Below, one piece after another: positions 21,175 through 52,741 of a stretch of 64,000 bases of DNA. A program made the position numbers and the translations under genes. The DNA is from Planctomycetota bacterium (lineage in GTDB: Bacteria; Planctomycetota; SZUA-567; H5-PLA8). Each line of letters begins with the position of its first letter. Position 1 is the stretch's first letter. The stretch lies in assembly GCA_026184295.1 (NCBI GenBank), contig JAHCJK010000008.1:1-64000 (forward strand), in the 5' to 3' direction. The notes beneath the pieces are model-generated. The model was not told the DNA's origin, ran no database searches, and saw only the letters and a list, made by a program, of their open reading frames with translations.

Positions 21175-21996
21175 ATGCAGCTTACCTGGGACCACCACAC
21201 CCACACGATCTATTGCCGGCACGCGCATCCCGAGATGACCGTGGAACGGAACCTCGCCGCCGCCGCCGCGAAGGGGCTCACGCGCCACGTCATCCTCGAA
21301 CACGTCCCCGAGATCGGCACGGCCGACCACGGCACCCCGGAACTCTGGTACAAAGCCAAGAACGAACGCTGGCAGCTCAACGTCATCGCCAACGACCTCG
21401 CCGCGATCGACCCGGCCGCGAAGTACCCGAACCTGAAGCTCCTGCGCGGCGTCGAAGTGGACGCCGATCCGTTCACGATGGACGGCTCCGCGATGCTCGA
21501 AGACTTCTCCGGCATCGACGTCGTCGTCGGCAGCACGCATCTTTTTCCCGGCGGCACGGCGTTCTGGTTCGAGAAGGTGGTGCTCCCGCCCGAACAGGCG
21601 CGCCGCGTGGCCGTGCAGTGGCGCGACTGGGCCGTGCGCTTCATCCGCGCGGGGCAGATCGACGTGCTCGCGCATCCCGGCGACCTGGCCGGCGCGCGGC
21701 AGCTCGTTCCGCCCTTTCACGTGCCGGAGACCCTCGCGCTCTTCACGCCGATCCTCGAAGCCCTGGCCGAATGCGGCGTGGCCTTCGAACTCAACGAACT
21801 GCTCGGGACCAAGCTCCCGCCGCCGTACAAGGCCAGCTACGTGGAATTGGTGAAACGCGCGAAACAGGTGGGCTGCACCTTCTCGGTCGCCTCCGACGCG
21901 CACAGCCCAGTCAACGTCGGGCGCTATGAATGGGTGCCGCTCCTTATAAAGGAGAGCGGGATCGGCCCCGCGGACCTGTGGGAACCCGAGTCGTGA
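21175..21996 (+). CDS. PHP-domain phosphoesterase
   Basis: A 273-residue metal-dependent hydrolase of the PHP superfamily. Metal ligands are visible in order: DHHTHT near the N-terminus, the His of LEHVPE, the Glu of GVEVDADP, the His of STHLFPGG, the His of LAHPGDL and DAHSPVN near the C-terminus. The family includes histidinol-phosphatase HisK and many phosphoesterases acting on small molecules or nucleic acids. The gene lies 17 nt after the ABC ATPase gene and is likely in one transcript with it, which may indicate a phosphorylated or phosphonate substrate for that importer (inference). Confidence 0.88.
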   Translation: MQLTWDHHTHTIYCRHAHPEMTVERNLAAAAAKGLTRHVILEHVPEIGTADHGTPELWYKAKNERWQLNVIANDLAAIDPAAKYPNLKLLRGVEVDADPFTMDGSAMLEDFSGIDVVVGSTHLFPGGTAFWFEKVVLPPEQARRVAVQWRDWAVRFIRAGQIDVLAHPGDLAGARQLVPPFHVPETLALFTPILEALAECGVAFELNELLGTKLPPPYKASYVELVKRAKQVGCTFSVASDAHSPVNVGRYEWVPLLIKESGIGPADLWEPES

Positions 21997-22132: not shown

Positions 22133-24628
22133 ATGACTTACGCAAGAGGTATCGTGCTCGCCATGCTGCTGTGCCTGGCGGGTGGAGCGCAGTCGGCCGA
22201 TACGCCTCTGCCCGGCGACCTGCTCAAACGCCTGGTCGAACAGACCGACGGCTTGGTCAAAGCCGGCGAGAAACCCAAGGTCTGGATCGAGATCTTCGGG
22301 AAAAAGACCGAGGTGCAGGTCAAGAGCGCGGACGCGAAGAGCCTGACCGTGCTCATCCAGGGGAACCCGCTGCCGCTCAGTTGGGAGAAGATCTCGCTGC
22401 CGGAGATCGCGGGGATCGCTTCGAGCACCGCGGGGGAGTCGGGCGCGCGGCTGCTGCTGGCGGGCGAGATCGCGCTCGCGGCCGGCAACCACGAACAGGC
22501 CAACAGCCTGCTGGGCAAGGCGCTCGCCGCCGACCCGAACCTGTCCGAACAGATCAAGGCCGCCGCCGCCAAGTTGCCTTCCGCGCTGGAAGCGCCGCCG
22601 CCGCCGAAGCCGCTTAAGATTCGGTTCGAGTCCGGCGGCGGGCAGGCGAACGCGGGCACGGGCAGCGGCACGGCGAGTCCCGCCGACCCGAACGCGGGCG
22701 CGACGGCGACGGTGATGCCCAAGCGCGACGGGCAGGGGCGCACGGAACGCCCGCGCGTGCTCTTCGATGCCGCGCGCCTGGCCGCGGTGCGCGCGCGGGC
22801 CGGCAACCCCGATGGGAAGCGCTTTCTCGGCTACCTGGCCGGCAACGGCAATCAGCTCAGCACCGAAGAGTTCGCGCTGGCCTACGTGATGACCGGAGAC
22901 GCGAAGCACGCGGCCGAAGCGATCGACCGCGTCGAGAAGAACATCATCCCACGCGGCGTGATCACCAACCTGAACAGCAGCTTTCCCGCGATGGCCTGCG
23001 TCGCGACCGTCTACGACTGGTGCCACGACAAGCTCACCGACGACCAGAAGAAGAAGTGGCGCGAATGGATCGCCAAGGAATACGAGGCGATGAAGCCGCA
23101 GTACGTCGAAGGCTACCACAACTACGGCGTCAAGGCCGCGCACGCCTTCGCGCTCTGCGGCTACGCCCTGCGCGGCGACGACGCGCTGGCCGACGACCTG
23201 CTCAAGGAAGCCTACGAGCACCGCTGGCAGCAGCTTATTCTGCCGGCCTGCAAGGCGGGCAACGCCGGCGGGGCCTGGTCCGAAGGCGAAGGCTACGGCA
23301 CGACCACCGCCGCGGTGGTGATGGAACTGGCCGAGGCCGCGCGCTGCGCCGACGGCAAGGACCTGGCCTCCGCCGCGCCCGAATTCTTCGTGGGGCGCCT
23401 GGCCTACATGATGTTCCTCGACATGCCCACGCTGACCCCCGACGGCGGGCACCGCCTGTGGATCAACGGCGACATGCACCGCCGCCGCAACTGGGACGAC
23501 GCGCTCCAGCAGCGCCTGGAACTCCAGGAGATGCTGAAGGGCACCGACCTGGCCGCCTACGCGCAGGAATACGCCGAAGCCAAGGGCTGCAACAAGTGCC
23601 AGTACAACTCCATGAACTGGATCGACGTGATGTGGCGCGACCGCGCGCAGCCGCGCAAGCCGCTCGACACCTTCAAGCTCTCGCACCTGGCCGTGGGCCG
23701 CGGGACGGTGCTGATGCGCAGCGACTGGACCGAGAACGCGACCCACGTCGGCTACGTCGCCGGCCCGCTGCTCTCTTCGCACACGCACTCCGACGCGGGG
23801 CACTTCACCATCTGGAAGCACGGCGAACTGGCCACCAACGCGGGCGACTACCGCGGCACCGGCAAGGGCTGGGCGCTCGACGCCTACATCCGCACGGTCG
23901 CGCACAACTCGCTGCTGATCTACGACCCGGCCGAAAAGATGCGCGCGCGCCACGAGAACGTGCTCAACGACGGCGGGCAGCTCGGCTACGACGGCACCGA
24001 AGGGCGCATGTCCGGCGCGAAGATCGTCGCCTACGACGCACGGCGCTCCTACACTTACATTTGTTCCGATCTGACCGACGCGTACGCCAAGACCAAGGTC
24101 ACCGCCGTGCGGCGGCAGCTCGTCTACCTGCGCCCCGACACGGTGGTGATCGTGGACCGCGTCGCCTCCACGAACCCGGCCTTCCCGAAGATCTGGCAGT
24201 GCTACCTCGCGGGCAACGCCAAGGCCGAAGAGAAGGTCTTCCGCACCGACAACGGCAAGGCCCGGCTGCGCGCGGACGTGCTCCTGCCCGCCGACGCGCA
24301 GGTGAAGCTGCTGGGCGGCCAGGACAAGGCCGTGGACGTCTTCGGCACCAAGGTCCCGCAGCCTCCGGGCGGAAACGGCAGCGACGACGGCCCCGCCTGG
24401 CGCGCCGAAGTGCGCCCGGGCGCGGCGCGCGCCGACGACCTCTTCGTGGTCGTGCTGCGCGCGTACGAGACGGCCGAACCGCCCGCGGCGACGGTGAAGG
24501 CCGACGGCAACACGCTCAAGTTCACCATCCCCGGGGCCGGCGAACTGGTGATGAACGCCGACGGCACGCCGGGCGGTTCGTACAACGGCAAGGCCTTCGC
24601 CACCGGCGTCGTGCCGCAGGAAGAATAG
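22133..24628 (+). CDS. Secreted heparinase II/III-like polysaccharide lyase with N-terminal module A
   Basis: An 831-residue exported protein with a signal peptide to about residue 23 (AQSADT). Residues ~28-150 form a module also present in the next two proteins (KAGEKPKVWIEIFGKK, then SWEKISLPEI, then a helical LLLAGEIALAAGNHEQA). A Pro/Gly/Thr linker leads to an alpha/alpha-toroid domain with YHNYGVKAAHAF and WSEGEGYG, then a beta-sandwich with SSHTHSDAGHFTIWKHGEL. The His/Tyr residues in those segments correspond by position to the catalytic and zinc residues of heparinase II and alginate lyases. The enzyme should cleave a uronic-acid polysaccharide by beta-elimination; substrate not determinable. 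The start at 22133 puts the signal peptide at the N-terminus. Confidence 0.88.
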   Translation: MTYARGIVLAMLLCLAGGAQSADTPLPGDLLKRLVEQTDGLVKAGEKPKVWIEIFGKKTEVQVKSADAKSLTVLIQGNPLPLSWEKISLPEIAGIASSTAGESGARLLLAGEIALAAGNHEQANSLLGKALAADPNLSEQIKAAAAKLPSALEAPPPPKPLKIRFESGGGQANAGTGSGTASPADPNAGATATVMPKRDGQGRTERPRVLFDAARLAAVRARAGNPDGKRFLGYLAGNGNQLSTEEFALAYVMTGDAKHAAEAIDRVEKNIIPRGVITNLNSSFPAMACVATVYDWCHDKLTDDQKKKWREWIAKEYEAMKPQYVEGYHNYGVKAAHAFALCGYALRGDDALADDLLKEAYEHRWQQLILPACKAGNAGGAWSEGEGYGTTTAAVVMELAEAARCADGKDLASAAPEFFVGRLAYMMFLDMPTLTPDGGHRLWINGDMHRRRNWDDALQQRLELQEMLKGTDLAAYAQEYAEAKGCNKCQYNSMNWIDVMWRDRAQPRKPLDTFKLSHLAVGRGTVLMRSDWTENATHVGYVAGPLLSSHTHSDAGHFTIWKHGELATNAGDYRGTGKGWALDAYIRTVAHNSLLIYDPAEKMRARHENVLNDGGQLGYDGTEGRMSGAKIVAYDARRSYTYICSDLTDAYAKTKVTAVRRQLVYLRPDTVVIVDRVASTNPAFPKIWQCYLAGNAKAEEKVFRTDNGKARLRADVLLPADAQVKLLGGQDKAVDVFGTKVPQPPGGNGSDDGPAWRAEVRPGAARADDLFVVVLRAYETAEPPAATVKADGNTLKFTIPGAGELVMNADGTPGGSYNGKAFATGVVPQEE

Positions 24629-24647
24629 TTCCGTGAGGTCCACGGCC

Positions 24648-27086
24648 ATGGTCCGGGCGCGCCTGATCCCTGTTTTCGTGCTGCTGGCCTGCGCCGCGCA
24701 CGCGCGCGCGGCCGACGCCGGCGTGCCCGCGGATCTGCTGCGGCGCCTGGCCGCGCAGGTGGCCGAGGCGGTAAAAGCCGGCGAAAAACCCAAGGCCTGG
24801 GTGGACGTGCTGGGCCGCAAGAGCGAAGTGCCGCTGGGCGGGGCGGACGAGAAGTTCGTGACGGTGCTGGTGCAGGGCAACGCCTTCCCGCTCGCCTGGG
24901 CCAAGATGCGCCCCGAAGACATCGTCTCGGTTGCGCGCGGTTCGGCGGGGCAGCACGGCGAACGCCTGCTGACCGCGGGCGAAGTCGCCATCGCGCTGGG
25001 CCTGGGGGAACAGGCGTCCGACCTGCTGGCCAAGGCGCGCGAGGCCGACCCGAAACTGGCCGAACGCATCGCGGCGCTGGCCAACAAGCTGCCGTCCGCG
25101 CCGCCGCCGCCCGCCGTGCCGCAACCCGCCGCCGCCGCCAAACCCGCCAACGAACCCAAGGAAAGCGCCTCGGCCAGCGCGCTCCCGCCGGTCAAGCTCG
25201 AACCCGGCTGGTGGAAGAACATCCAGGTCGCGGTCCCGAAGGTCTTCGCCTCGCACCCGCGCATCTACCTGCGCGAAAAGCCCTGGGGCGAGAACGGCCT
25301 GACGCTGGATGCGCTGCGCGCCCGCGCGGCCAAGGATCCGTGGAAGGGCTGGATTCCGCGCTTTACCGGCGACCCCGACAACCTGGCGATGAAGTTCCTG
25401 CTCACCGGCGACAAGGCCGCCGCCGACAAGGCCGTCGCCGCGATCCAGTCCAAGCCCTCGCAGGCCGGCGACACCGACGACGGCGACACGCTCGAACAGT
25501 ACTGCATGGCCTTCGACTGGCTGTACGCGGCGTACCCGGGCTTTACCGACGAAGCGAAGAAGAAGGCCGCCGACACGATCGCGGGCGTCGCCGAAGACCT
25601 GGTCAAGCGGCTCACCAGCGGCGGGCCGCACATCTTTCACACGCGCATGTACGCGTGGGCCAACGGCATCGTCTTCGCCGGGCTGGCGCTGAACGGACAC
25701 CACCCGAAGGCCGACGAGTTCGTCCAGTTTGGCTACAAGTATTGGCGCGAGAAACTCTTTCCCGCACGCTGGCATCAGGCCGGCGCGTGGCAGAACGGCT
25801 TCGGCTACGGGCGCAAATACATGTTCCGCAGCACCTGCGCCTTCCTGCATGCCTGGCAGAGCGGCACGGGCGAGGATTTGTGGAAGGTTATCAAGAACGA
25901 GCAGGACGACTGGATCGGCGCGCAACTGCGCTTCCTGGTCACCGTGCAGCGTCCGGACGGCACGTACCCGACCTTCGGCGACTGCTACAACAGCGACGAC
26001 GAAAAGTTCAGCGGCGGCCTGGCGCAGATGCTCGCCGCCGGCACCCGCGACCCGCTCGCCGCGTGGCTCGCCCAGACGCTGCATAAGCGCCACGGGCTGC
26101 GCACGGTCGAGGACCACTGGAACATCTACCCGTTTCTCTTCTTCGATCCCGCGCAGGCGGCCAAGGGCCCCGAGTCCCTGCCCACGTCGGCGGTCTGGGG
26201 CCCGCGCGCGCTGGGCTTCGCGGTGTTGCGGCAGGGCTGGGGGCCCAAGGACGCGTACGTCTTCTTCAAGTGCGGCGATTACTTCGAGAACCACGGGCAC
26301 TACGACCAGGGGCACTTCGAGATCTTCCGCGAGAAGCCGCTGGCCGTGGACAGCGGCGCGTACGTGGGCGGCTTCGACAGCCCGTGGCGCCTGGAATACT
26401 GCCGCCAGAGCGTGGCCAGCAATACGCTGCTCATCAACGATCCGGCCGACGCGGGCGAGACCGGCTGCCAGCGCGTCGTGAACTTTCAGGGCGCCGACTC
26501 GCTCGAGACGTACCTCAACCACAAGTCCTGCGAGATGGGCGACATCCTCGACTTCCGCACGGGCAAGGATTTCACCGCGCTGGTGGCCGAATACGCGAGC
26601 GCCTACGACACGGCGAAGGTGAAGCAGTGCACGCGCATGCTCGTCTTCCTGGCCGGGAAGCACCTGATCGTCTGCGACGCGGTGCAGACGGCCAAGCCGA
26701 TGCGCGTGCGCTTTCTGCTGCACTACGCCGCCGACCCGTCGGTCGAAAAGAACCGCGCGGCGATCGAGAACGGCCCGAGCCGGCTCACCTGCGACACGCT
26801 GCTGCCCGAGAACGCCAAGATCGCGAAGCTGCCCGGCTTCACGCTCAACGGCAAGTCGTACTCGCCGGGCAAACCAATGAGCGAAGACGCGGGCAAGGGG
26901 CAGTTGGAGATCGAAGGCGCGGACCTATCGGCCAATACGGTGCTCCTGAACGTCCTGACCGTCGGCCCCAAGGAGATGCCCGCGCCCAAGGCCACCGCCA
27001 AGAATACCGGCTCCGAAATTGTCGTCGAAATCGAAGGCCGGAAGATTCACTTTTCACTCACGGCGCGCACGATTGCCGTGAAGTGA
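24648..27086 (+). CDS. Secreted heparinase II/III-like polysaccharide lyase, second paralogue
   Basis: An 812-residue exported protein, beginning 19 nt after the previous stop with GAGG 10 nt before the ATG. The signal peptide ends near HARAAD. The N-terminal module (~30-145) repeats that of the upstream gene: KAGEKPKAWVDVLGRK, LAWAKMRPEDIVSVA, LTAGEVAIALGLGEQASDLL. The toroid domain contains HTRMYAWANGIVFAG and WQNGFGYGRKYM; the beta-sandwich contains ENHGHYDQGHFEIFREKPL, the expected His-rich lyase site. Outside the module it is only distantly similar to its neighbour, so the pair probably attacks different linkages. Same strand and tight spacing indicate an operon. Confidence 0.88.
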   Translation: MVRARLIPVFVLLACAAHARAADAGVPADLLRRLAAQVAEAVKAGEKPKAWVDVLGRKSEVPLGGADEKFVTVLVQGNAFPLAWAKMRPEDIVSVARGSAGQHGERLLTAGEVAIALGLGEQASDLLAKAREADPKLAERIAALANKLPSAPPPPAVPQPAAAAKPANEPKESASASALPPVKLEPGWWKNIQVAVPKVFASHPRIYLREKPWGENGLTLDALRARAAKDPWKGWIPRFTGDPDNLAMKFLLTGDKAAADKAVAAIQSKPSQAGDTDDGDTLEQYCMAFDWLYAAYPGFTDEAKKKAADTIAGVAEDLVKRLTSGGPHIFHTRMYAWANGIVFAGLALNGHHPKADEFVQFGYKYWREKLFPARWHQAGAWQNGFGYGRKYMFRSTCAFLHAWQSGTGEDLWKVIKNEQDDWIGAQLRFLVTVQRPDGTYPTFGDCYNSDDEKFSGGLAQMLAAGTRDPLAAWLAQTLHKRHGLRTVEDHWNIYPFLFFDPAQAAKGPESLPTSAVWGPRALGFAVLRQGWGPKDAYVFFKCGDYFENHGHYDQGHFEIFREKPLAVDSGAYVGGFDSPWRLEYCRQSVASNTLLINDPADAGETGCQRVVNFQGADSLETYLNHKSCEMGDILDFRTGKDFTALVAEYASAYDTAKVKQCTRMLVFLAGKHLIVCDAVQTAKPMRVRFLLHYAADPSVEKNRAAIENGPSRLTCDTLLPENAKIAKLPGFTLNGKSYSPGKPMSEDAGKGQLEIEGADLSANTVLLNVLTVGPKEMPAPKATAKNTGSEIVVEIEGRKIHFSLTARTIAVK

Positions 27087-27177
27087 ATCCCCACCGATTC
27101 AAAAGCCGCTCGAAATCCTGTGGTGCCGCCCCGGTTTTAACGTTTACCCTTGTGGACTCGGAAAGGGGTGGAACGGG

Positions 27178-29022
27178 ATGCCGACGAGGTTGACGGGCCT
27201 GACGCTGGCGCTCGGCGCGGCGCTGCTCTCCGCGGCGGCCGCGCGCGGTTCCGACGCGCCGGGCAAGGACGACGCGATCAAGCAGTTGGCCGCGCAGATG
27301 GCGGAGGCGCTCAAGGCCGGCGAGAAGCCGAAGGTCTGGGCGGAGGTCTTCGGGAAGAAGGCCGAGTATCCGCTGAAGTCGGCCGACGAGAAAGGTTTTG
27401 CCGTGCTCGTCGCGGGCAACGCCTTCGGGCTCGAATGGGCCAAGCTCGCCCCCGACGACCTGGTCACCGTCGCGAAGACCTTCGGCGCGGGCCACGGCAA
27501 GCGGCTGCTCACCGCCGCGGAACTCGCGATGGCCCTCGGTCAGAGCGATCAGGCGCTCGATCTTCTCGCCAAAGTCACCGAAGCCGATCCGAGCCTGGGC
27601 GACCGGGTCAAGGCCGCCGCCGCGCGCATCAAGGACGCGCCGGCCGCGGCGCCTGCCTCGAGCGGCTCGAACGAAGCGGCCCCCGGCCCCGCCGCGGGCG
27701 GCAAGATGGTCACGGTCACGCCCGAAGAGGACGCCACCACCCCGCTGCGCCTGCCCGACGCGGGCCTGCAGACGCGCATGTGGTCGGCGCCGCAGGACAA
27801 CTACCTGATGCGCGCGAACATCCTCTACGCCCGCTTTACCTGGAAGGACTGGGGCCTGGACGGAAAGCAGAAGACCGGGCACTTCAAAGGCTGGATGGAC
27901 AAGAAGCGCTACGTCGCCTTCCGCATGTACTGCAACACGGCCGAAGACCTGCCGACCGGCGTCCCGACCGTGACGAGCGAAGGCAAGACCATCCCCGCGT
28001 ACTGGGACCCGAAGTTCCTCGAGTTCCACAAGAAGTTCGTGCAGGGGGTGGCCCAGGAGATCGGCGAGAATCCGTACCTGGCCTACATCGACATCGGCGG
28101 GGTGGGGAACACCGGCGGCGAATGGCTCGTCTATCCCGACGACCGCTGGGGCGACAAACCCGTCTTCGACAAGGTCGGCTACACCGAGGAGGCCAAGGAC
28201 AAGCTCGTCTGGGAACTGATGAAGATGTACCGCGAGGCTTTCCCGCACGTGCGCCTGTACCTGGCCTGCGGCGGCTACGGGCACTGCAAGGACAAGGCGA
28301 AGCTGATCGAGTACATGCAGCAGAACAACATCGGCCTGCGCAGCGACGGGCTCTGCTGGCCCTCCGTGGACGACGCCGACACCTGGAGCGTCCGCAAGAA
28401 CGGCACGCACAAGCTGTGGGAGAACGTCCCGTTCCAGTGGGAAGGCTCGTATTCCACGATGGAGTGGGAAAAGGACGGCTGGAAGACCGACGAGATCATG
28501 AAGCGCGCGCTCGACTTCGGGCCGATCTCGTTCTGCTACGCCGACGCCGACAAGGACGCGCTGCGCTTCGAAGGCGACGCCGCGAAGGTCAAGATTCTCG
28601 AACGCACCGCGCTGAAGATGGGCTACCGCATCGCGGTCGCGAAGGCCTCGTACTACGACACCGCCGCGCCCGGCGGCACGCTGGAACTGAATCTGACCCT
28701 GGTCAACCGCGGGGTCTCGAAGATCTACGCGGACCGGAACTTCGAAGTCGCGCTGCTCGACGCGTCGGGGCAGGTGCGCGGCGCGGCCAGCGCCAAGCCG
28801 ATGCCGTCCACGCGGCTGTGGATGCCCGGGCAGGAGATTCCGGTTAGCCTGAAAGTCACGTTGCCGAAAAGCGTGCCGTCTGGTGAATATAAGCTAGCGA
28901 TCGCCATGCTGGACGAAGACCCGCGCCGGCCGAATCAGGCCCTCCCGATGGCCCTGAAGAACGGGACCGCCGAGCACCGGTATCCTCTTGGCAGCCTTAA
29001 GGTAACGCTGCGAAGTCGATAG
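27178..29022 (+). CDS. Secreted glycoside-hydrolase-like protein with DUF4832-type tail and N-terminal module A
   Basis: A 614-residue exported protein; signal peptide to about residue 23. Residues ~27-150 are the third copy of the shared module (KAGEKPKVWAEVFGKK, LEWAKLAPDDLVTVA, LTAAELAMALGQSDQALDLL). The central part resembles a TIM-barrel glycoside hydrolase (AYWDPKFLEFHKKFVQGVA, YLAYIDIGGVGNTGGEW, LRSDGLCWPSVD, FQWEGSYSTMEW). The C-terminal ~110 residues (GGTLELNLTLVNRG, RLWMPGQEIPVSL, GEYKLAIAMLDEDP) fit DUF4832, a beta-sandwich often found on such enzymes. Catalytic acids cannot be assigned with certainty. GGGGTGGAACGGG precedes the ATG. Confidence 0.78.
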   Translation: MPTRLTGLTLALGAALLSAAAARGSDAPGKDDAIKQLAAQMAEALKAGEKPKVWAEVFGKKAEYPLKSADEKGFAVLVAGNAFGLEWAKLAPDDLVTVAKTFGAGHGKRLLTAAELAMALGQSDQALDLLAKVTEADPSLGDRVKAAAARIKDAPAAAPASSGSNEAAPGPAAGGKMVTVTPEEDATTPLRLPDAGLQTRMWSAPQDNYLMRANILYARFTWKDWGLDGKQKTGHFKGWMDKKRYVAFRMYCNTAEDLPTGVPTVTSEGKTIPAYWDPKFLEFHKKFVQGVAQEIGENPYLAYIDIGGVGNTGGEWLVYPDDRWGDKPVFDKVGYTEEAKDKLVWELMKMYREAFPHVRLYLACGGYGHCKDKAKLIEYMQQNNIGLRSDGLCWPSVDDADTWSVRKNGTHKLWENVPFQWEGSYSTMEWEKDGWKTDEIMKRALDFGPISFCYADADKDALRFEGDAAKVKILERTALKMGYRIAVAKASYYDTAAPGGTLELNLTLVNRGVSKIYADRNFEVALLDASGQVRGAASAKPMPSTRLWMPGQEIPVSLKVTLPKSVPSGEYKLAIAMLDEDPRRPNQALPMALKNGTAEHRYPLGSLKVTLRSR

Positions 29023-29140: not shown

Positions 29141-32100
29141 ATGTCAGGGGCAACAACCTATCCGCGGGTGGGCGATTTTGAATTGATCGCGAAGTTAGGG
29201 GAAGGCGGGATGGGCGCGGTGTACCAGGCGCGCCAGATCTCGCTGCAGCGCATTGTTGCCGTAAAAATCCTCGCACCCAAATACGCCCGCGACCAGGAAT
29301 ACGTCCAGCGCTTCCAGCAGGAGGCGCGCGCGACGGGCAAGCTGAACCACCCCAACATCGTCGCCGCGACCGCGGTGGGCTTTGCCGACCGCTATTACTA
29401 CTTCGCCATGGAGTTCATCGAAGGCGAGAGCCTGAAGGCGAAGATCGTGCGCAAGGGCGCGCTGCCGGAGGACGAGGTCGTGCGCATCGGCGCCGCGATG
29501 GCCTCGGCGCTCGCCCATGCGCACGAAGCCGGGATCGTCCACCGCGACGTGAAGCCCGACAACATCCTCATCGACGCCGCCGGCACCGCCAAGCTGACCG
29601 ACCTGGGCCTGGCCAAGCTCCAGGAAAAGGAAGACGGCAGCCTGACCAAGAGCGGCGCGACGGTGGGCACGCCGCACTACATCGCGCCCGAACAGGCCTG
29701 CGGCGAACGCGACATCGACGGGCGCGCCGACATCTATTCGCTGGGCTGCACGCTCTACCACGCCGCCACGGGGCGCACGCCCTTCGAGGCCGCCAACGCC
29801 GCGATGCTGATGGTCAAGCACCTCAACGAGAAGATGCCCCACCCGCAGGCGGTGCGGCCGGAACTGAGCGACGAGTTCTGCGCGGCGATCGGGCGCATGG
29901 TCGCGCGCAGCCGCGAGGACCGCTACACGACGATGGACGAGGCCGCCGAGGACCTGAACGCGCTGGCCCACGGCGAAGCGCCCGCGCGCGGGGCGCTGCC
30001 GCAGGCCAAATCGAACTTCCAGTCGAGCAACCGCGCGCCCAAGCTGGCCACCTCGAAGAAACTGGCGATTCCCGAGCGCGGGCAGTCCAGCCGCATGATG
30101 CCGGCGGCATCGCGCCACGGGGGCGAACGGCGCGCGAAGGAACGGCGCGGCGAGTCCTCCAACGCGATGTACGCGGTGGCCGGCGTCTTCGCGCTGCTGA
30201 CCGTCGCCGCGCTGGGCTGGCTGCTGCTGGGCGGCAAGCCGCCGCCCAGGGACCTGACGCAGGAATCCAAGACGGCGCCCGCCAAGACGTCCGAGAGCAA
30301 GACCGAGCCGGACCCCGAGGGCTCGCCCTGGTACAAGAATCCGGGTTCGAAGACCGAGACGCCGGGCACGCCGGAGGCGCCCAAGGCCGACGCGCTGCCG
30401 CCGGGCTGGACGCGCGTCTTCAACGGGCGCGACCTGACGGGCTGGCGCGTCGAACGGCCGTCCTGGCGGATCGAAGGCGGCGACCTGGTCGGCCAGGGCC
30501 AGGGCGAGGCGCTCGCCATGGCAAGCTACGCCGAGCGCATCAGCACCGATTTCGAGTTCTCCTTCCGCCCGACGCGCCAAGGGATGTACCACATCGACTG
30601 GGCCGACGGGGCCGAGGAGTGCGACCTGCTGCTCCAGAAGGCCGACGGCGTGTTGCAGCTCCTGCGCTACGACGGGAAGAAGAACCGCACCCTCGCCGAG
30701 TACGCGATGCAGCCCTCCGAGCGCCAGAAGGACGTGCGCGTCTCCGTGCGCGGCGGGCAGATCGACGTCTTCGTGGACGCGCTGCTGCGGCTCTCGTACA
30801 GCGACGGGCACTTCACGCCGGGGCGTTCGCGCGGCCTGCACCTGTACGTGTATGCCGGGCAGACGGCGGGCTTCCGCGACCTGGCGCTGCACGAACTGAC
30901 CGGCGCCGCGGCGGTGGCCTCGACGGTGCCCATGGACGCCTTCATGCGCGAAGTCGCCGCGCTGGCCCCGCAGGAACAGGTCAACCGCGTGATGGCCAAG
31001 CTCAAGGAACTGAACCCCGGCTTCCCGGGCGCGTGCGAGCCCGTGATCTTCGGCGGCAAGGTGACCGAACTGCGCATGGAAGGCGCCAAGGTCGCCGACA
31101 TCTCGCCCCTGCGCGCGCTGCGCACGCTGACCAAGCTCCAGATCGCCACCGAATTCCCCAGCAAGAGCCAGATCGCGGACCTGACGCCCGTCAAGGACCT
31201 GCCCCTTACCTCGTTCCAGTGCGACCACGCCCGCGTCGCCGACCTCGCGCCGCTGAAAGGCATGAAGCTCTCCGCGCTGTACCTCGACGGCAACCCGCTC
31301 GCGGACATCTCGCCCCTGGAGGGCATGCCCCTGGCCGTCCTCCAGATCAGCTACTCGCGCGTCGGCGACCTGGCGCCGCTCAAGGGCATGCGCCTGAGCC
31401 GCCTGCGGATCGACGGCTGCCCGGTCAAGGACCTCTCGCCCATCGGCGGGATGCCGCTGATCTGCCTGCTGATGGAACGCACCGCCGTCCGCGACCTCGC
31501 GCCGCTCAAGACGCTCCCGCTGCGCGAGATCCGCATCGACCCGAAGCCCGAGTACGGCAAGACGCTCGCGGAACTCCCGTCGCTTTCCACGATCAACGAC
31601 ACGCCCGCGGAAATCGCCCTGGCGATGCTGGGCGACATCGACGCGCAGGGCTACGTGGCGCTGCTGCGCGAGAAGAACGCCGACGACTGGACGATCCGGT
31701 TCCCCTCCTGGACGCTCAAGGACGGCCTGCTGGAAGGGCAGGGCACGCAGGACCAGGGCAACGCGATCATCCGCCGCAACATCCGCCTGCCCGGCGCCTT
31801 CGATCTCTGCTTTACCGCCACGGTGAACGCGCGCTTCCACTTCTCCTTCGAGAACAAGAACGGCGGCTGGCACATGCAGTGCGACAAGAACGGCATCGCG
31901 CTGGGCGTCACCGCCGATGGGAACAAGGTCGAATTCTCGGGGGAGGCGGCGCAGGTCCCCTTCGACAACAACCCGCACGAATACCGCGTGGTCTTTACCG
32001 CCAAGGCATGGGACGTCTACTTCGACGGGCGCAAGGTCATGCAAGCCGGCGGGAACCTGAACCCCGGCGGCTCGCCGCTGACCCTGACGATCTATGCGTC

Positions 32101-32152
32101 GAAGTCCGGGAAGAGCGTCATCCAGAACCTGCGCGTCCGGCCCGCGCGCTAG
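29141..32152 (+). CDS. Receptor-like serine/threonine kinase with DUF1080-like and LRR-like extracytoplasmic domains
   Basis: A 1003-residue membrane kinase. The kinase domain (13-275) has the glycine loop GEGGMGAVY, Lys42 in VAVKIL, catalytic HRDVKPDN (Asp136) and DLG (Asp154), so it should be active. A basic linker leads to one transmembrane helix (~343-364) and a Pro/Thr/Lys-rich stalk. The outer part starts at ~420 with PPGWTRVFNGRDLTGW, a DUF1080/concanavalin-like domain. About seven 20-22-residue LRR-like repeats follow (VADLAPLKGMKLSALYLDG, VGDLAPLKGMRLSRLRIDG and similar, ~635-800), then a second lectin-like beta-sandwich (~850-1003). This architecture fits sensing of a carbohydrate ligand. 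It lies directly after the three secreted enzymes. The last 35 nt overlap the convergent metal ATPase gene. Confidence 0.92.
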   Translation: MSGATTYPRVGDFELIAKLGEGGMGAVYQARQISLQRIVAVKILAPKYARDQEYVQRFQQEARATGKLNHPNIVAATAVGFADRYYYFAMEFIEGESLKAKIVRKGALPEDEVVRIGAAMASALAHAHEAGIVHRDVKPDNILIDAAGTAKLTDLGLAKLQEKEDGSLTKSGATVGTPHYIAPEQACGERDIDGRADIYSLGCTLYHAATGRTPFEAANAAMLMVKHLNEKMPHPQAVRPELSDEFCAAIGRMVARSREDRYTTMDEAAEDLNALAHGEAPARGALPQAKSNFQSSNRAPKLATSKKLAIPERGQSSRMMPAASRHGGERRAKERRGESSNAMYAVAGVFALLTVAALGWLLLGGKPPPRDLTQESKTAPAKTSESKTEPDPEGSPWYKNPGSKTETPGTPEAPKADALPPGWTRVFNGRDLTGWRVERPSWRIEGGDLVGQGQGEALAMASYAERISTDFEFSFRPTRQGMYHIDWADGAEECDLLLQKADGVLQLLRYDGKKNRTLAEYAMQPSERQKDVRVSVRGGQIDVFVDALLRLSYSDGHFTPGRSRGLHLYVYAGQTAGFRDLALHELTGAAAVASTVPMDAFMREVAALAPQEQVNRVMAKLKELNPGFPGACEPVIFGGKVTELRMEGAKVADISPLRALRTLTKLQIATEFPSKSQIADLTPVKDLPLTSFQCDHARVADLAPLKGMKLSALYLDGNPLADISPLEGMPLAVLQISYSRVGDLAPLKGMRLSRLRIDGCPVKDLSPIGGMPLICLLMERTAVRDLAPLKTLPLREIRIDPKPEYGKTLAELPSLSTINDTPAEIALAMLGDIDAQGYVALLREKNADDWTIRFPSWTLKDGLLEGQGTQDQGNAIIRRNIRLPGAFDLCFTATVNARFHFSFENKNGGWHMQCDKNGIALGVTADGNKVEFSGEAAQVPFDNNPHEYRVVFTAKAWDVYFDGRKVMQAGGNLNPGGSPLTLTIYASKSGKSVIQNLRVRPAR

Positions 32153-45640: not shown

Positions 45641-46068
45641 CGCGGGAGACAGGAACGCGACGATGCCGGCCGGTCATTTCAGAGCGCGCAGGTTCGACCA
45701 TCCCGGGCGGGCCGGGAGCCCGCCCCACGGCAGACCTCGAGGCGTACGCGCCGTCAAGCGGACCTCCGGCGCGCAGCCTCCGGTAAAACGCAGTTCCAGC
45801 GCCGTGCCACCGGCCGCGCGCCGTCCGAACGCGCCGCGCCCGCCGAACGCATCGCTCCGCGCCCGGCCGCAGAAACCGGCTCCAGCGCCCGCGCGTTCCC
45901 GCGCCGGCCGCGCCCGCGCGTGCCGCGGCCAAAGCCAAACAGGCGACAGGCGCCCAGCGCCAGCCACGGCGATTCTCGCCGCCGCCGCCTCTGCGCCGCA
46001 TGAATCACCCAGCTTCGTCAGCGACTTCTCGGGCGGCAGGCCTTATAATGGCCGCCGGAGGAGAACCC
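45641..46068. other. 428-nt interval without a convincing gene
   Basis: A GC- and Arg/Pro/Ala-codon-rich stretch between the two PA14 genes. An ATG at 45663 with AGGA upstream opens a basic Pro/Ala/Arg-rich frame, but its third-position GC is low for this genome and it overruns the next gene. Another frame is also open from the upstream stop. I see a possible TATAAT (46043-46048) 20 nt before the next ATG. The region may be a decayed gene or spacer. Confidence 0.5.
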
Positions 46069-47349
46069 ATGTCTCGCAATTTGCTTCATCTGGCCCTGGT
46101 CGGCCTGCTGGCCGCCGCCTGCGTCGGCCTGGGCGCGACCGCGGGCTGGCTCTGGTTCGGCGCGCCGTCGGCTTCGCCTGAAAACGCCGCCGTGACCAAG
46201 GCCGGCCTGGACGCCCCGGGCGAGCGCTCGGCCGTGCCGGTCTCGAACTCGGGGCGCGCGCCGGCCGCGGAGGAAGGCAACGCGGCGAAGTTCGTCGGGC
46301 GCGACGATAAGCTGGCGGGGAACTGGAAGCAGCGCTTCGGCGGCGACGGGTACGTGATCTTCAACCGCAACGGCGGCGGGCAGCACGAGGTCCAGCTCCC
46401 GACGTACCTTTCCGAAGTCACCTGCACGGGCGACGGGCACGTCTGGGCCGTCAACGACGACGCGCGCGGCCTGGAAGACCCCAACGATCCCAAGAAGCGC
46501 TACCAGACCTGCATGTACTCGAACTCGGACATGCTGCTCTCGGTCAAGGCCGCGCGTCCGCTGCCCTACCGCGTCTCGGTGTACTGCCTCGACGGCGACC
46601 GCCTGGGCCGCAAGCAGAAGGTCGAAGTGCTCGACGGCGACAAGGTGCTGCACGCGCAGGACGTTGAAGAGATGGGCGGCGGCGTCTGGCTCACCTGGGA
46701 ATTCCGCGGCTCGCTGGACATCCGCTTCACCAACACCGGCCCGCACAACGCGGTGCTGGCGGGCATCTTCTTCGACACCGACGAGAAGCTGAAGGTCGCG
46801 AAGCGTTCGCCGCCCAAGGGTCCCATGCCGGGCGAAGACCAGCTCAAGCCCGGCGTCTGGGCCGAGTACTTCGACCAGTTGCCCACCTACCCGAACGTGA
46901 AGGACGTGGCCACGGTGCGGCGGATCGAGCCGGGCATCGCCTTCGGCGGCATGCAGCCGCTTCAGCCCGGCCAGGGGCTGCGCGGCTGGCCGTTCGCCGG
47001 CGCGTGCGCGGCGCTCTTCAGCGGCTACGTGAAGATTCCGGAGGACGGCGCGTACACCTTCTTTGTCGAATCCGACGACGGCGCGCGCCTGTACATCGAT
47101 GGCGAACTGGCCGTGGACAACGACGGACGCCACCCGATGAAGGAGGCCTCCAAGCGCCTGGACCTGAAGGCCGGCCTGCACCGCGTGTGGGTCGAATACT
47201 TCAACGCCGAGCCGCCCATGGGCCTGAACGTGTACATGCAGGGCAAGGACGGCAAGAAGGCGCCCATCCCCGAAGGCACGCTGCTGTACGACCCCAGCGA
47301 AGTGCTGAGCGAATCGTCCCACCACGAGACCGCGGTCGCGCGCCGCTGA
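46069..47349 (+). CDS. Membrane-anchored PA14-domain protein
   Basis: A 426-residue protein with GGAGGAG before the ATG at 46069. An N-terminal transmembrane or signal-anchor helix (~6-32) leads to a polar stalk and a beta-sandwich (~85-235: NRNGGGQHEVQLPTYLSEV, RVSVYCLDGDRLGRKQKVEV, WEFRGSLDIRFTNTG) in the position where the neighbouring protein has a discoidin-like domain. The C-terminal PA14 domain (~255-405) contains PGVWAEYFDQL, LFSGYVKIPEDGAYTFFVES, DDGARLYIDGELAVDNDG and GLHRVWVEYFN. It is a paralogue of the 44402 protein. Probable extracytoplasmic glycan binder; partner unknown. Confidence 0.85.
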   Translation: MSRNLLHLALVGLLAAACVGLGATAGWLWFGAPSASPENAAVTKAGLDAPGERSAVPVSNSGRAPAAEEGNAAKFVGRDDKLAGNWKQRFGGDGYVIFNRNGGGQHEVQLPTYLSEVTCTGDGHVWAVNDDARGLEDPNDPKKRYQTCMYSNSDMLLSVKAARPLPYRVSVYCLDGDRLGRKQKVEVLDGDKVLHAQDVEEMGGGVWLTWEFRGSLDIRFTNTGPHNAVLAGIFFDTDEKLKVAKRSPPKGPMPGEDQLKPGVWAEYFDQLPTYPNVKDVATVRRIEPGIAFGGMQPLQPGQGLRGWPFAGACAALFSGYVKIPEDGAYTFFVESDDGARLYIDGELAVDNDGRHPMKEASKRLDLKAGLHRVWVEYFNAEPPMGLNVYMQGKDGKKAPIPEGTLLYDPSEVLSESSHHETAVARR

Positions 47350-47484
47350 GCCGCCGCTTCCGTCCGCAACCCTCGCAGCCAACGCCCGTCCGAGCCTGTT
47401 TTTGCGAAGGATCGCGCCGCCCCGCGTCCTCTCACGTCGCGAAGGCGTTGGTCTTCGCGAACCCCTGTTCAAACGAGGTGCGGC

Positions 47485-50283
47485 ATGCGAATCTTCCTGG
47501 CGGTCCTGGGCGTCCTGGCGCTGATCGGAGCCGCGCGCGCGGCCGAACAGAGCGTCCTGCTGGCGGACTTCGAAGCGCCCGGGGACAAGGCCTTCGAGAA
47601 GCCGCCGGAGAGCACGATCGTGGCGGAGCACGCGAAGCAGGGCGCGCACGCGCTCAAGTTCGTCCACGGCGGCGAAGGGTACCCCGGCTTTCGCATCGAC
47701 GCCGGCGCGGCGATGGATAAGCTGCACGAGCACTTCGAACGCTTCCCGCTGCTCACGATGGACCTCTTCAACCCGCAGGATTTTCCCGTCCCGCTGGGGG
47801 CGAGCGCCGGGGACGCGCAGAGCAAGGACTACGGCTCGCGCTTCAACGAAGACGGGCTCTCCGCGCCGCCGGGCTGGTCCACGCTGCGCCTGAACTTGAC
47901 CGGGCTGCTCTGCTCGAACTCGAACAACTGGCACGAGCGCCGCCCGCTGAACGCGAAGGACCTGCGCTTTCTCGTCGTCTTCATGCACCCGCACACGCGC
48001 GGGAAGCCCGTCACGCTCTTCGTCGATCGCGTGCGCCTGGAAAACGACGGGTTGCCCAAAGTCGAGGGCCTGCGCGCGTTCGATTTCGGCCCCGCGGTCT
48101 CGGGGGTCTTTCCAGGCTTTACCGCCGTCAACGAACGCACAAACTTCGACGCGAAGGCCGGGTACGGCTGGGTGAACCCCGGGCGGCACGCGCGCGTGGC
48201 CAACCCCGACATGCTGGGCGGCGACTTCGGTTCGGGCGGATCGTTCGGCCTCAAGGTCGAACCGGGCGCGTACGTCGTGCAGATGGTCATCGACGCCTTC
48301 GGCGAGTGGCAGGGACCGCAGGTCTGGTCCGAACGCAGCGTCGCGATCAACGGCAAGACGGTGCTCGAGGAGAAGACCGACGGGCCGACGTTCCTGAAGA
48401 ACTGCTACCTCCAGTTCGAGGAGACCGACGACCTGCCGGGCACCGACCTGTGGGAAGAGCGCGTCAAGCCCGCGCTGCCGGTGCGCACGTTCGAGGCCGA
48501 GGCCGGCGCCGACGGGATGCTCTCGATCGTGGCGAAGAACGACCGCGGGCCCGCGCCGGTCGCCTGGCTGGTCGTGTACCCGAAGGCCAAGGCCGATGAA
48601 GGCGCGGCCTACATGAAGACGCTCGACGCGCGGCGCAAGGAGTTCTTCGAGAGCGCCGTGAACAAGATTCTGCCCAAGCCCAACGCCGAAGCGTTCGCGC
48701 CGGAGCCCGCCGAGACCGCGCGCGGCTTCGCGCTCTTCGCATGTTCGACCCAGGCCGACGTGACGGCCGCGTACGTCCCCAGCGCCGAGGAACGCAAGGC
48801 CGGCCTGAACGTCGCCGCGTGCCCGGGCGAACGCGAGGCCGCGCAGTTCGGGTTCCATCCTTTCAAGAAGCTCGAAAAGGTCTCGGTCTCCGGCGGCGAA
48901 CTGCGCGGCCCGGGCGGCGCGGCGATTCCCGCGGGCGCGATCCAGGTCCGCAAGGTCCGGCACTTTTACGCGCGGCGGGGCAACTCCCTGGTGCTCGTGC
49001 CGCGCATCCTGCAATCGGCCGAGGCGATGACGCTGACGCCGGGCGTGAGCCAGGGCGTGTGGGTGACGCTGAAGGTCCCCGCGGACGCCGCGCCGGGCGA
49101 GTACGCGGGCGAGATCCGGATCGAGGCCGGCGGCGCGAAGAGTTCGCTGCCGGTGCGCCTGACCGTGCGGCCGTTCGCGCTCGACAAGGCCGACGACGTG
49201 ACGATCTCCTGCACGGGCACCACCGGCGGCCACTGGCGCCATTGGGGCAGCGGCCTGGAGGAACGCTGGTGGCAGGTCGCCGAGGAGGCGCTGCGCGACC
49301 AGGCCGAGCACGGCATGAACGCGGTGACCGGCGGCCCGGGCTTTCGCGTCAAGGCGGTGAAGGACGGCAAGGCCGAGATCGATTTCGCCGAGGCCGACCG
49401 CTGGATGAAGCTCGCCAACACCTACGGCCTGACCGGGCGGGGGGACGCCTACCAGGGCCTGGACGCGCACTTCGGTTTCTACCGCAGCTTCAACGCCGAT
49501 TGCATGAAGACGAACGAGGAGCAGGCGCGCAAGGCCTTCGGCGTCGGCTTCGAGGACCTGATCCGCGCCACCTACGCCGAGGTGGAACGCCACGCCGCCG
49601 AGCAGCACTGGCCGCCGCGCGTCTACTACCTGCTCGACGAACCGCGCCCCGAGTTCGGGAACGTCGCGTCGGCCCTGGAGTTCACCCAACTGCACGTCCG
49701 CGCCGCGCCGAACACGAAGTTCAGCGGGTACTATTCGCCGGGCGACGGGCGCGAACCCTACTTCGCGACGATGCCGGTCTCGATCGCGCACCATTCGGAA
49801 GCCTCGCTGAAGATCTGCCGCGAGAACGGCAAGGAGGCCTGGACGTACACGGCCGGCGGCGAACGCCACGACATCGGGCGCTGGCTCTTCTTCGCGAAAC
49901 GGAAGGGACTGACCGGCTACCTGCGCAACGGCTACCAGTACGTGAATTCGAGCGCGTACTACGATTACTCCGACGTCGAAGGCTCCTGGGCGCAGACGTA
50001 CCCCAGCGCGCGCGGGATCGCGTCCACCGTCGGCTGGGAACGCACCGCGCAGGGCGTGAACGATTACCGTTACCTGAAGACGCTCCAGGGCCGCATCTCC
50101 GCGGCCAAACAGAGCGGCGCGAAGCCCGCCGAGACGAAGGCCGCCGAGGCCTTCATGGCCGCGACGCTTTCGGCCCTGACCCTCGACAAGGAAGACTCCG
50201 CGGAACTGACGCCCGCCGGCTGGGTGGAATTCCGCGCGGAACTCGCGAAGCACATCCAGGCGCTCGCGCCGGCCGGCAGGTAA
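47485..50283 (+). CDS. Secreted GH123-like/DUF4091 glycoside hydrolase
   Basis: A 932-residue exported protein; signal peptide to about residue 19 (ARAAEQ). Residues ~20-190 resemble a carbohydrate-binding beta-sandwich (SVLLADFEAPGDKAFE, TMDLFNPQDFPVPL, GKPVTLFVDRVRL). A further sandwich (~200-400) precedes a GH123-type N-terminal region (CPGEREAAQFGFHPFKKLEK, GVWVTLKVPADAAPGEYAG) and a TIM-barrel-like region with HGMNAVTGGPGF and VYYLLDEPRPEFGN; the Asp-Glu of LLDEP is where GH123/DUF4091 proteins place their catalytic pair. GH123 enzymes act on N-acetyl-galactosaminides; this member is divergent, so the substrate is open. It lies upstream of a lyase gene on the same strand (29-nt gap). Confidence 0.82.
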   Translation: MRIFLAVLGVLALIGAARAAEQSVLLADFEAPGDKAFEKPPESTIVAEHAKQGAHALKFVHGGEGYPGFRIDAGAAMDKLHEHFERFPLLTMDLFNPQDFPVPLGASAGDAQSKDYGSRFNEDGLSAPPGWSTLRLNLTGLLCSNSNNWHERRPLNAKDLRFLVVFMHPHTRGKPVTLFVDRVRLENDGLPKVEGLRAFDFGPAVSGVFPGFTAVNERTNFDAKAGYGWVNPGRHARVANPDMLGGDFGSGGSFGLKVEPGAYVVQMVIDAFGEWQGPQVWSERSVAINGKTVLEEKTDGPTFLKNCYLQFEETDDLPGTDLWEERVKPALPVRTFEAEAGADGMLSIVAKNDRGPAPVAWLVVYPKAKADEGAAYMKTLDARRKEFFESAVNKILPKPNAEAFAPEPAETARGFALFACSTQADVTAAYVPSAEERKAGLNVAACPGEREAAQFGFHPFKKLEKVSVSGGELRGPGGAAIPAGAIQVRKVRHFYARRGNSLVLVPRILQSAEAMTLTPGVSQGVWVTLKVPADAAPGEYAGEIRIEAGGAKSSLPVRLTVRPFALDKADDVTISCTGTTGGHWRHWGSGLEERWWQVAEEALRDQAEHGMNAVTGGPGFRVKAVKDGKAEIDFAEADRWMKLANTYGLTGRGDAYQGLDAHFGFYRSFNADCMKTNEEQARKAFGVGFEDLIRATYAEVERHAAEQHWPPRVYYLLDEPRPEFGNVASALEFTQLHVRAAPNTKFSGYYSPGDGREPYFATMPVSIAHHSEASLKICRENGKEAWTYTAGGERHDIGRWLFFAKRKGLTGYLRNGYQYVNSSAYYDYSDVEGSWAQTYPSARGIASTVGWERTAQGVNDYRYLKTLQGRISAAKQSGAKPAETKAAEAFMAATLSALTLDKEDSAELTPAGWVEFRAELAKHIQALAPAGR

Positions 50284-50312
50284 CCTCGTTCGCCCGCACC
50301 TCGGAGAATCGC

Positions 50313-52671
50313 ATGCAAGCCGTCCCCTTCGAAGACGAACGGTCCGTACGCGACGACGATTTTCCCGGGCACCTCGCGCTGCCTGGCCCGGCCGGCCGCG
50401 CGCTGATGTCGGCGCGCAAGGCCGGCGACCGCGGAGCCGTGGCGCGCGATCGCGCGGCACTTCCGCACGCGCGCGGCGCCGTGCTGGCCCTTTTACATGC
50501 ACGGCACGGCCTGGCTGGAGATCGACGGGCGCGGCAAGGTGCTCGAGAAGGCCGACGGCCTGCTGCGCGGAATCTTCCGCAATGCGTGGCCGGACTTCGG
50601 CAACGACGGCCTGGGCGCGCGGCCCGACTGGCATCGCGGCATCGACCTGCAGGGCACCAGCATCGCGCGCAACGTCTTCGCGGTCGAACTCAGCACCGCG
50701 TTCGCGCTCACCGGCAAGGTCGCCTATGCGCGCAAGGCCCTTGAATACATGCGCGCGTACGCCGAGGGCGTGCCGTTCGTCCTCGAGCCGGGCTTTCACG
50801 AAGACCACGACCGCTACTTCGGCGGGCGCGGCAACGAGACGCTGACGCTGATTTACCGCTGCGTGCGCTGGATCGACGTGATGCATTCCGGCGTCATGCA
50901 CGCGCCGGGGGTCTTTTCCGACGAGGACGTCTTCTGGCTCGTGAAATCGCTCTGGTTCTACGCGATGCAGTTCTACCGCTTCGTGGGCGACGCGATGCGC
51001 CGCGACAACCACCACCTGGTGGACCACGGCCACGCGCCGTTCGTCCTCGGGATCATGTTCCCGGAATTCTCGGTGGCCCGCGCGCTGCTCGATCAGGGGC
51101 GCAAGACCATCCTGCACCACTTCGGGCACAACGTCTTCGCCGACGGCGGCTACGCGGAACACAGCACCAAGTATCAGTACCACATCACCTACCACTACCT
51201 GAACCCCATGGCGATCGCGAAGGCCAACGGCCTTCGGCTGTTCTCGCCCGCGCAGGAGGCCCTGCTGGCCAAGTGGGTGGAATTCAACGCGCATGCCTGC
51301 AAGCCCGACGGCGTGCTCAGCGACTTCGGCGACGAATTCGGCGGCTCGCACGCGTACCTTTTCGGATCGCTCGCGGTGCCCGTCATGTCGCCCAGGCTTG
51401 CCGCGCTGGCGCGCGCGCTCGGCTACGAACCGGGTTCGCTGAGCTACGAATCGCCCGCCGCCCTGGCGGCGCGCTTCAAGCATTGGAAGCCCGGCAAGGC
51501 GCCGCGCGTGGGCCTTTCGCCGCATTTCGAGAAACGCAAGGCGCCCGCGAAGCCGGCCGCGAAGGTGCTGCCGGTTCCGGCCGCGCAGTATCCGCACGGC
51601 GGCTACACGTTCCTGCGTTCGGCCTGGACGAAGGACGCGGACTACATGGCGGTCGCGCACTACACCGACTGCCTGCCGCACGGTCACGCGCACTGGGACA
51701 TGCTCAGCTTCGTCCTGCATACGCAAGGCGTGACGCTGATCGGCGACCCGGCGACGTGGATCTACACCGACAAGCGCAACTGGGAATCGCAGGAGATGCG
51801 CGGCTACGCGTACGCGGTGGACGCGCACAACTGCCTGGTGATGAACGACGACACGCTCAAGCCGATCAAGGCCCTCGGGCACGGCTGCTGCTGGGGCGGA
51901 TACCCGCCGAAGCATGGCCTGGGACTTTTGCGGACCGGCGGGCCGATCGAAGTCGCGGAACTCTGGCACGATGCCTACGCGCCCACGCGCCACCGGCGCT
52001 ACGTCGTTCACGTGTGCGGCCTCGGCTTCGTCTTCGTGGACCTGCTTTCGCGGCCGGGGCTGGACCTGCGCCCGCACCAGTATTCGCAGCTCTTCCACTT
52101 CGAAGGCGGCGTGGAGATCACCCCCGGCAAGCCCGCCGCGGGGCAGACGCTGCGCGCGTGGAAGGAACCCGCGAGCTGCCTGATCGTGCCCGGCGCCGAA
52201 GCCGAGACGAAGTGGAAGGCCTGGCGCGACGAACGTCTCGCGAACCTGTACGGCGTCAGCCGTTCGCCCGAAGGCAAGCGCGGCCCCGCGCCGTGGGTCG
52301 CGGAACTGACGCGGCGCATCCAGGGGCCGAGCGTCTTCACCAACTTCCTGATCACGCGCCCGAGCATGGACGTGCCTTCGGTGCCGTCGGCGCGTTACCT
52401 GGGATCGGAGCCCGCGCGCTGGCTCTTCCAGCAGCACGAAGGGCTGAGCGCGCACGCGCTGGACCTGGGGCGCCACGGCACGCTGTACGTCGCGAGCTGC
52501 CCGTACGGGAAGACGCTGGAGCACGCGGAACTGGCCACCGACGCGGAATTGGCGGTCGTCCTGGCCGACGCGCGCGGCAAAAACACCGCGTGGTGTATGG
52601 CAAAGGGTTCGCGCCTGCGCGTGCGCGGCCGGAAACTCTACGCGGGCAAGCGGAGCGACTGGCGTTCCTGA
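50313..52671 (+). CDS. Heparinase II/III-like polysaccharide lyase, apparent frameshift near 5' end
   Basis: The gene probably starts at ATG 50313 (GGAG 6 nt upstream), encoding MQAVPFEDERSVRDDDFPG and then SARKAGDRGAVAR. The homologous continuation, AIARHFRTRAAPCWPFYMHG, is in a different frame, which has a stop at about 50404. The switch must occur near 50440-50455, so the sequence carries a one-base insertion (or two-base loss). From 50497 the frame is open to 52671 (724 codons) with lyase features: RDNHHLVDHGHAPF, YAEHSTKYQYHITYHYL, and LPHGHAHWDMLSFVLH. No signal peptide is evident. It is either a real mutation or a base-call error; the remainder is intact. Clustered with GH123-like and ADP-ribosylglycohydrolase genes. 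Confidence 0.8.
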
Positions 52672-52706
52672 CCGTCGCTGGCGCGCGGGCCGTGGCGTGG
52701 TACACC

Positions 52707-52729
52707 GTTGGCTTCCCATCCAAGCCAAC
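52707..52729 (+). promoter_or_regulatory. Hairpin immediately before the ribosome-binding site
   Basis: Perfect 8-bp stem GTTGGCTT/AAGCCAAC with a 7-nt loop, ending at the base next to the GGAG Shine-Dalgarno (52730-52733) of the ADP-ribosylglycohydrolase gene. There is no T-tract, so it is more likely a translation or RNA-stability element than a terminator. Confidence 0.5.
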
Positions 52730-52741
52730 GGAGACCCGACC

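Follow-up and report, generated by a model that had tools for sequence, protein, structure and literature searches.

An undescribed module with a predicted SH3/Sm-like barrel and TPR-like hairpin on secreted polysaccharide-active enzymes of a planctomycete lineage

Three adjacent genes of a planctomycete encode secreted enzymes that begin with the same module, an undescribed domain of about 125 residues which, by sequence comparison, lies on one end or the other of some 20 unrelated secreted enzymes per genome in several Planctomycetota. We propose, with a probability of about one half, that it is an extracytoplasmic protein–protein docking domain that gathers chosen enzymes at a common partner in the envelope or periplasm. 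Planctomycetes encode many polysaccharide-degrading enzymes and the module gives a handle on how these could be organized: it picks out about 20 enzymes per genome of the lineage, probably acting together and many of them unannotated, and provides a single bait with which to seek the partner. No description of it was found in a literature search that lay mostly outside subscription journals. The accessible part of a survey of CAZymes in Planctomycetota treats known CAZy modules only (PMC11131199).

The window locus

The window (the whole stretch of 64 000 nucleotides that was analysed) contains three module-bearing genes, P0001–P0003, followed by a kinase gene, P0004 (Table 1). The intergenic gaps are short, with 19 bases between P0001 and P0002, 91 between P0002 and P0003 and 118 between P0003 and P0004. 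No sigma-70-type promoter-like site was detected between positions 21800 and 29400, which is little informative for a planctomycete. The original prediction, made from the sequence, was that the three proteins combine a common N-terminus with differing catalytic domains, and both parts hold. Over 125 residues the modules are 52.8% (P0001/P0002), 56.8% (P0002/P0003) and 44.8% (P0001/P0003) identical, and a search with the first module alone matches the N-termini of P0002 and P0003 with E values of 1.6e-31 and 4.2e-24. In their catalytic parts P0001 and P0002 share 27.9% identity, and that of P0003 is unrelated to either.

Table 1. Features of the module locus in the window.
Feature	Position	Strand	Description
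P0001	22133..24628	+	831 aa: signal peptide, module, linker, HepII-like polysaccharide lyase domain
Module copy 1 (P0001 residues 26–149)	22208..22579	+	Profile E 7.7e-43; copy modelled with AlphaFold
P0001 linker, low-complexity	22580..22747	+	77% A/P/K/E/G/S/T over 40 residues examined
P0002	24648..27086	+	812 aa: signal peptide, module, linker, second HepII-like lyase domain
Module copy 2 (P0002 residues 26–149)	24723..25094	+	Profile E 1.9e-43
P0003	27178..29022	+	614 aa: signal peptide, module, linker, predicted GH-like barrel, beta-sandwich with terminal DUF4832
Module copy 3 (P0003 residues 29–152)	27262..27633	+	Profile E 8.6e-40; pLDDT 89–96 within full-length model
P0004 (no module)	29141..32152	+	Ser/Thr kinase, apparent transmembrane segment, 3-keto-disaccharide-hydrolase-like domain, LRR region, second similar C-terminal domain

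P0001 and P0002 match Pfam Hepar_II_III_C, and the HepII structures 3e7j/2fuq in the PDB are matched over the C-terminal catalytic part (E 7e-32 for P0001 and 1.5e-25 for P0002); homology of this part identifies both as HepII-like (PL21-type) lyases. The HepB model NF045571 matches P0001 with an E value of 2.7e-41, but the scores of both proteins fall far under the equivalog cut-off and no substrate is therefore assigned. Each lyase departs at one aligned residue from the conserved HepII motif NHQHQD...AIDAGSY...IAHN (positions 23708–24172 and 26205–26765): Asn replaces the motif Asp in P0001 (ATNAGDY) and Ser replaces the motif His in P0002 (ASNT). The changed positions may be metal-site residues, and the activity of the two enzymes may differ.

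The original assignment of the third protein as GH-like/DUF4832 was also confirmed: DUF4832 (PF16116) scores 72.4 bits against a cut-off of 29.2 and lies behind a predicted GH-like barrel. The full-length model of P0003 shows the module as a separate confident unit, a disordered linker (residues 157–172 with pLDDT <50), a region of alternating strands and helices and a beta-sandwich. Glycoside hydrolases (GH30 XynC, GH2 mannosidases, GH10 and GH5) come nearest to it in the PDB, with low TM-scores that indicate fold class only. A second polysaccharide cluster of the window, at 46000–54865, encodes a PA14 protein, a GH123-like hydrolase, a HepII/III lyase (N and C domains) and an ADP-ribosylglycohydrolase, none of which bears the module.

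Predicted fold and conserved residues

The AlphaFold model of copy 1 (pLDDT 96.3, pTM 0.87) has a helix at residues 3–18, strands at 24–29, 32–41, 45–50 and 53–58 and helices at 64–75, 79–91, 95–108 and 110–120. The confidently predicted fold is thus a helix followed by a four-stranded SH3/Sm-like barrel and a TPR-like hairpin. No counterpart of the whole module was found in Pfam or the PDB, where no structure matched at E<=0.001, and the searches led to no characterized whole domain; a search of viral structures gave no match. In Foldseek comparisons with the PDB, the barrel is most like Hfq and a de novo SH3 barrel, and the tail resembles TPR proteins. Pfam TPR_19 is recognized in eight of 20 modules (best E 2.8e-5), those of P0001–P0003 being under the Pfam cut-off, and the module profile matches consensus TPR proteins in the PDB over its C-terminal half, which is a helical hairpin in the model. 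The tail had been foreseen as helical and is so, although the model is better described there as a TPR-like hairpin. SHD1 (SLA1 homology domain 1) and bacterial SH3/Sm-like small barrels likewise have a small barrel of four or five strands; in the module helices follow. SHD1 itself (PF03983) was rejected as a candidate, as no match passes the cut-off and the strongest in the genome, with E 2.65, lies elsewhere.

Conservation is centred on a barrel hairpin, QGN-x-x-P-x-W. Its Trp, which belongs to the predicted LxWxK turn after strand 4, is present in all 82 modules compared (100%), bearing out that turn; Gly31 (97%), Gly52 (96%), Pro56 (81%), Asn53 (79%) and Asp42 (74%) follow. The other proposed core, KAGEKPK-[VA]-W, applies to the sub-clade of the window (nine of 124 carriers), but the wider family has Phe, Tyr or Trp at that Trp position. 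A role in structure alone could also account for one conserved Trp and a Gly-Asn turn. SH3-like and TPR folds typically bind proteins.

Carriers, distribution and evolution

Queries of the source genome with single copies matched 19 and 20 places, and a profile (A1) built from 20 copies recovered all of these strongly, together with weaker ones. By this measure the genome holds about 20 copies, mostly C-terminal. Besides the three window proteins, those with an N-terminal copy are a beta-helix protein (contig C57), a fragment (C352) and, on C295, a 505-residue protein that Pfam does not match. At the C-terminus the module occurs on HepII/III lyases (C6 and C5), beta-helix proteins (C14, C90, C32 and C6), several proteins that match nothing in Pfam and, on C25, an FG-GAP protein that includes an RGL11-like part, such that both HepII/III lyases and beta-helix proteins bear the module at either end. 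Only four of the 18 HepII/III proteins of the genome carry it, which indicates a tag for a subset of enzymes rather than a signal for export in general; likewise it is on four of about 13 beta-helix proteins and one of five DUF4832 proteins. As most members of these three groups are without it, a catalytic or general export role was rejected. On contig C6 of the source genome (locus L037, G000:C6, 7446–15200), four consecutive genes each have a C-terminal module; they encode a beta-helix protein, a HepII/III lyase and two related proteins whose main domain has no Pfam match.

Of 124 carriers, which we gathered from five genomes and some further ones, 42 have the module no more than 60 residues from the N-terminus and 68 no more than 25 residues from the C-terminus, so that 110 have it at a mature end; half of the remaining 14 are kinases or kinase-like membrane proteins. 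The original description of an N-terminal module is accordingly true of the window trio but not of the family, in which placement is position-independent. The carrier linkers are rich in Ala, Pro and Lys, and mostly consist to 55–97% of A/P/K/E/G/S/T. A simple home-made signal-peptide score was passed by 85% of carriers compared with 31% of other long open reading frames at the same loci (p 1e-18). Pfam matches among 80 carriers from four other genomes comprise beta-helix (19), HepII/III (7), polysaccharide lyase 14 (5), BNR (4), GH123 (2) and DUF4832 (2), with FG-GAP, GH42 and others. Nearly all carrier partners with a recognizable domain are polysaccharide-active or beta-helix proteins, and the suggested check, that the module should not turn up on random cytoplasmic proteins, came out in its favour in the source genome and its relatives.

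Among 41 genomes searched, 14 gave a match. Five genomes of the source's own family (G000, G001, G002, G004 and G006) have 18–26 copies each and G010, from another family of the same class, has 21; all genomes of family f3 but one had no match. In 392 genomes of the phylum, with at most 11 candidates scored per genome and copy numbers therefore being lower bounds, 30 matched at 1e-10. High copy numbers were confined to the same six genomes; f15 genomes have one to three copies each and most others a single divergent copy. A scan reaching beyond the phylum, with one narrow pattern, recovered only Planctomycetota MAGs. G003, of the source's own family, encodes eight HepII/III lyases and two divergent module relatives, with no enzyme-type module detected; together with the untagged homologues this indicates that the module is dispensable for export or catalysis as such.

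The distant relatives make up a wider SH3-TPR family. In a separate clade (L029:3-971, L087:9696-11156, L137, L138, L058, L071 and L061) the proteins are secreted and have an N-terminal SH3-TPR module without the Trp; one scanned carrier matches DUF1570. This clade is likely to be a wider planctomycete domain family absent from Pfam. Locus L057 (G011:C243) has a 1415-residue open frame with three tandem divergent modules behind an apparent membrane segment.

Compared with their sister-species orthologues, the modules of P0001 and P0003 are 61.6% and 71.2% identical and the catalytic domains 74.0% and 82.7% identical, respectively, i.e. at the sequence level the module diverges faster between orthologues than the catalytic domain. 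Despite this, the modules of P0001 and P0002 resemble each other far more closely than their lyase domains do. Most simply, the module was passed among these genes once the lyases were already divergent, or it has been kept alike by a common partner. For recent gene conversion between the copies in the window there was no support, as their third-codon identity (50–57%) is like that of orthologues (48–53%). In a tree of 118 modules, which is based on few columns and has many unresolved forks, the end used changes 15 times over N-terminal, C-terminal and middle positions. The window copies form a single well-supported clade (97%), which also includes those of a beta-helix protein and of a protein that was labelled thioredoxin-like from reading the sequence, Pfam giving no match.

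Proposed function and alternatives

In the mechanism that we put forward at even odds, a folded module comprising the helix, the SH3/Sm-like small barrel and one TPR-like hairpin is fused through a flexible linker to either end of an enzyme. After export, the QGN-x-x-P-x-W hairpin and the TPR hairpin would attach a subset of lyases and hydrolases to a partner that they have in common in the envelope or periplasm, and docking would keep the enzymes that act on a complex polysaccharide together, at the cell. The original suggestion of a targeting, complex-building or substrate-docking module is partly supported, in that an undescribed module is indeed common to secreted enzymes with different catalytic domains. 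We infer that the module binds protein rather than glycan and that its carriers share one partner; the greater likeness of the P0001 and P0002 modules than of their lyase domains is as expected for a common partner.

The arrangement recalls the dockerins of the cellulosome and the 'planctosome', which are likewise small, flexibly linked, usually terminal, present on many secreted enzymes and read as docking to a scaffold. The fold of the module differs from those of dockerin and cohesin. Dockerin (PF00404) has no match in the genome and is not among the Pfam matches of the 20 modules, and the scaffold family cohesin (PF00963) has no match in the genome, which is 94% complete; with both families absent, a dockerin/cohesin system was discarded. 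The 'planctosome' proposed for freshwater planctomycetes involves peptidases and real cohesin/dockerin pairs (PMC6461901). The planctomycete-specific PSCyt/PSD domains, discussed for Verrucomicrobia, are domains of unknown function that are multiplied in PVC proteins, sometimes with carbohydrate-binding domains (PMC5615132). They resemble the module in being lineage-specific and multiplied, but are linked to cytochromes and occur in several PVC phyla, whereas the module is high-copy in two sampled families only and has no Pfam link.

The main rival to docking, unlikely but the foremost of the alternatives, is a new carbohydrate-binding module that holds the enzyme on its substrate or on a glycan of the cell's own envelope. 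The CBMs of multi-modular CAZymes are linker-joined accessory domains at either end of polysaccharide-active enzymes, and the module shares placement, flexible linkers and partners with them. However, none of the 20 modules matches a CBM family of Pfam at E<=1, the SH3/Sm-plus-TPR fold, which has no whole-module PDB match, is unlike known CBM families as far as Pfam and the PDB show, and a single invariant aromatic offers no obvious aromatic platform; diverse lyases, hydrolases and kinases also fit a common partner better than one substrate. Because both ends serve, we regard it as less likely still that the module is a signal sorting its carriers into a dedicated route for export, to the outer membrane or into vesicles, in the manner of the T9SS C-terminal domain or PEP-CTERM, which are also common end tags on many secreted enzymes of a lineage. 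Export of the carriers, the position at the extreme end and the predominance of the C-terminal form would suit such a signal. The module differs from those tags in using both ends and sometimes mid-protein positions, in having no family match (no NCBIfam sorting-tail model at E<=0.5 for P0001–P0003, C-terminal carriers being scanned by Pfam only), in its absence from many homologous secreted enzymes and in being a folded domain of 125 residues rather than a short signal.

It is doubtful that the module merely oligomerizes or stabilizes its own enzyme through an Sm-like ring or a TPR–TPR self-contact, with no outside partner: the best PDB relatives of the barrel in Foldseek include, beside small SH3 barrels, the ring-forming Hfq, but the similarity to Hfq is weak (E>=0.2) and does not extend beyond the barrel, and the modelled barrel has four strands compared with five in Hfq. 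Least probable is a generic planctomycete SH3-TPR domain spread by duplication with no single common role. Single distant relatives are indeed scattered through the phylum, on kinases as well as on other secreted proteins, yet the high-copy form with the invariant Trp is concentrated in two families, on polysaccharide-active enzymes, and its hairpin is strongly constrained.

An extension of the docking proposal, speculative and improbable as a whole, would be a cohesin-free counterpart of the cellulosome in which the SH3-TPR module recruits enzymes to one envelope scaffold and module-bearing Ser/Thr sensor kinases report on or regulate the assembly.

The kinase that had been noted directly downstream of the trio, P0004, does adjoin it, and the sister species has the order HepII, DUF4832, kinase (identities of 67.5, 75.8 and 55.4%) with one lyase fewer. 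Since it is kept beside the cluster in this way, P0004 is a possible partner of the module. A kinase as a general neighbour of module genes was rejected, as module loci totalling about 1.03 Mb contain kinase motifs seven times; closely downstream of module enzymes, these are confined to the window and the corresponding cluster of the sister species. Kinase domains are also encoded at loci L134, L121 and L155, with a divergent module in the half beyond the membrane segment, i.e. extracytoplasmic, which is in line with the docking proposal. Locus L042 of the source genome groups with L134 and L121 on the module tree (99% clade), and the three apparently represent an orthologous membrane protein, with a Ser/Thr kinase in two genomes and with L042 cut by the contig end, past which any kinase part would fall. 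In L042 the divergent module is followed by three similar repeats.
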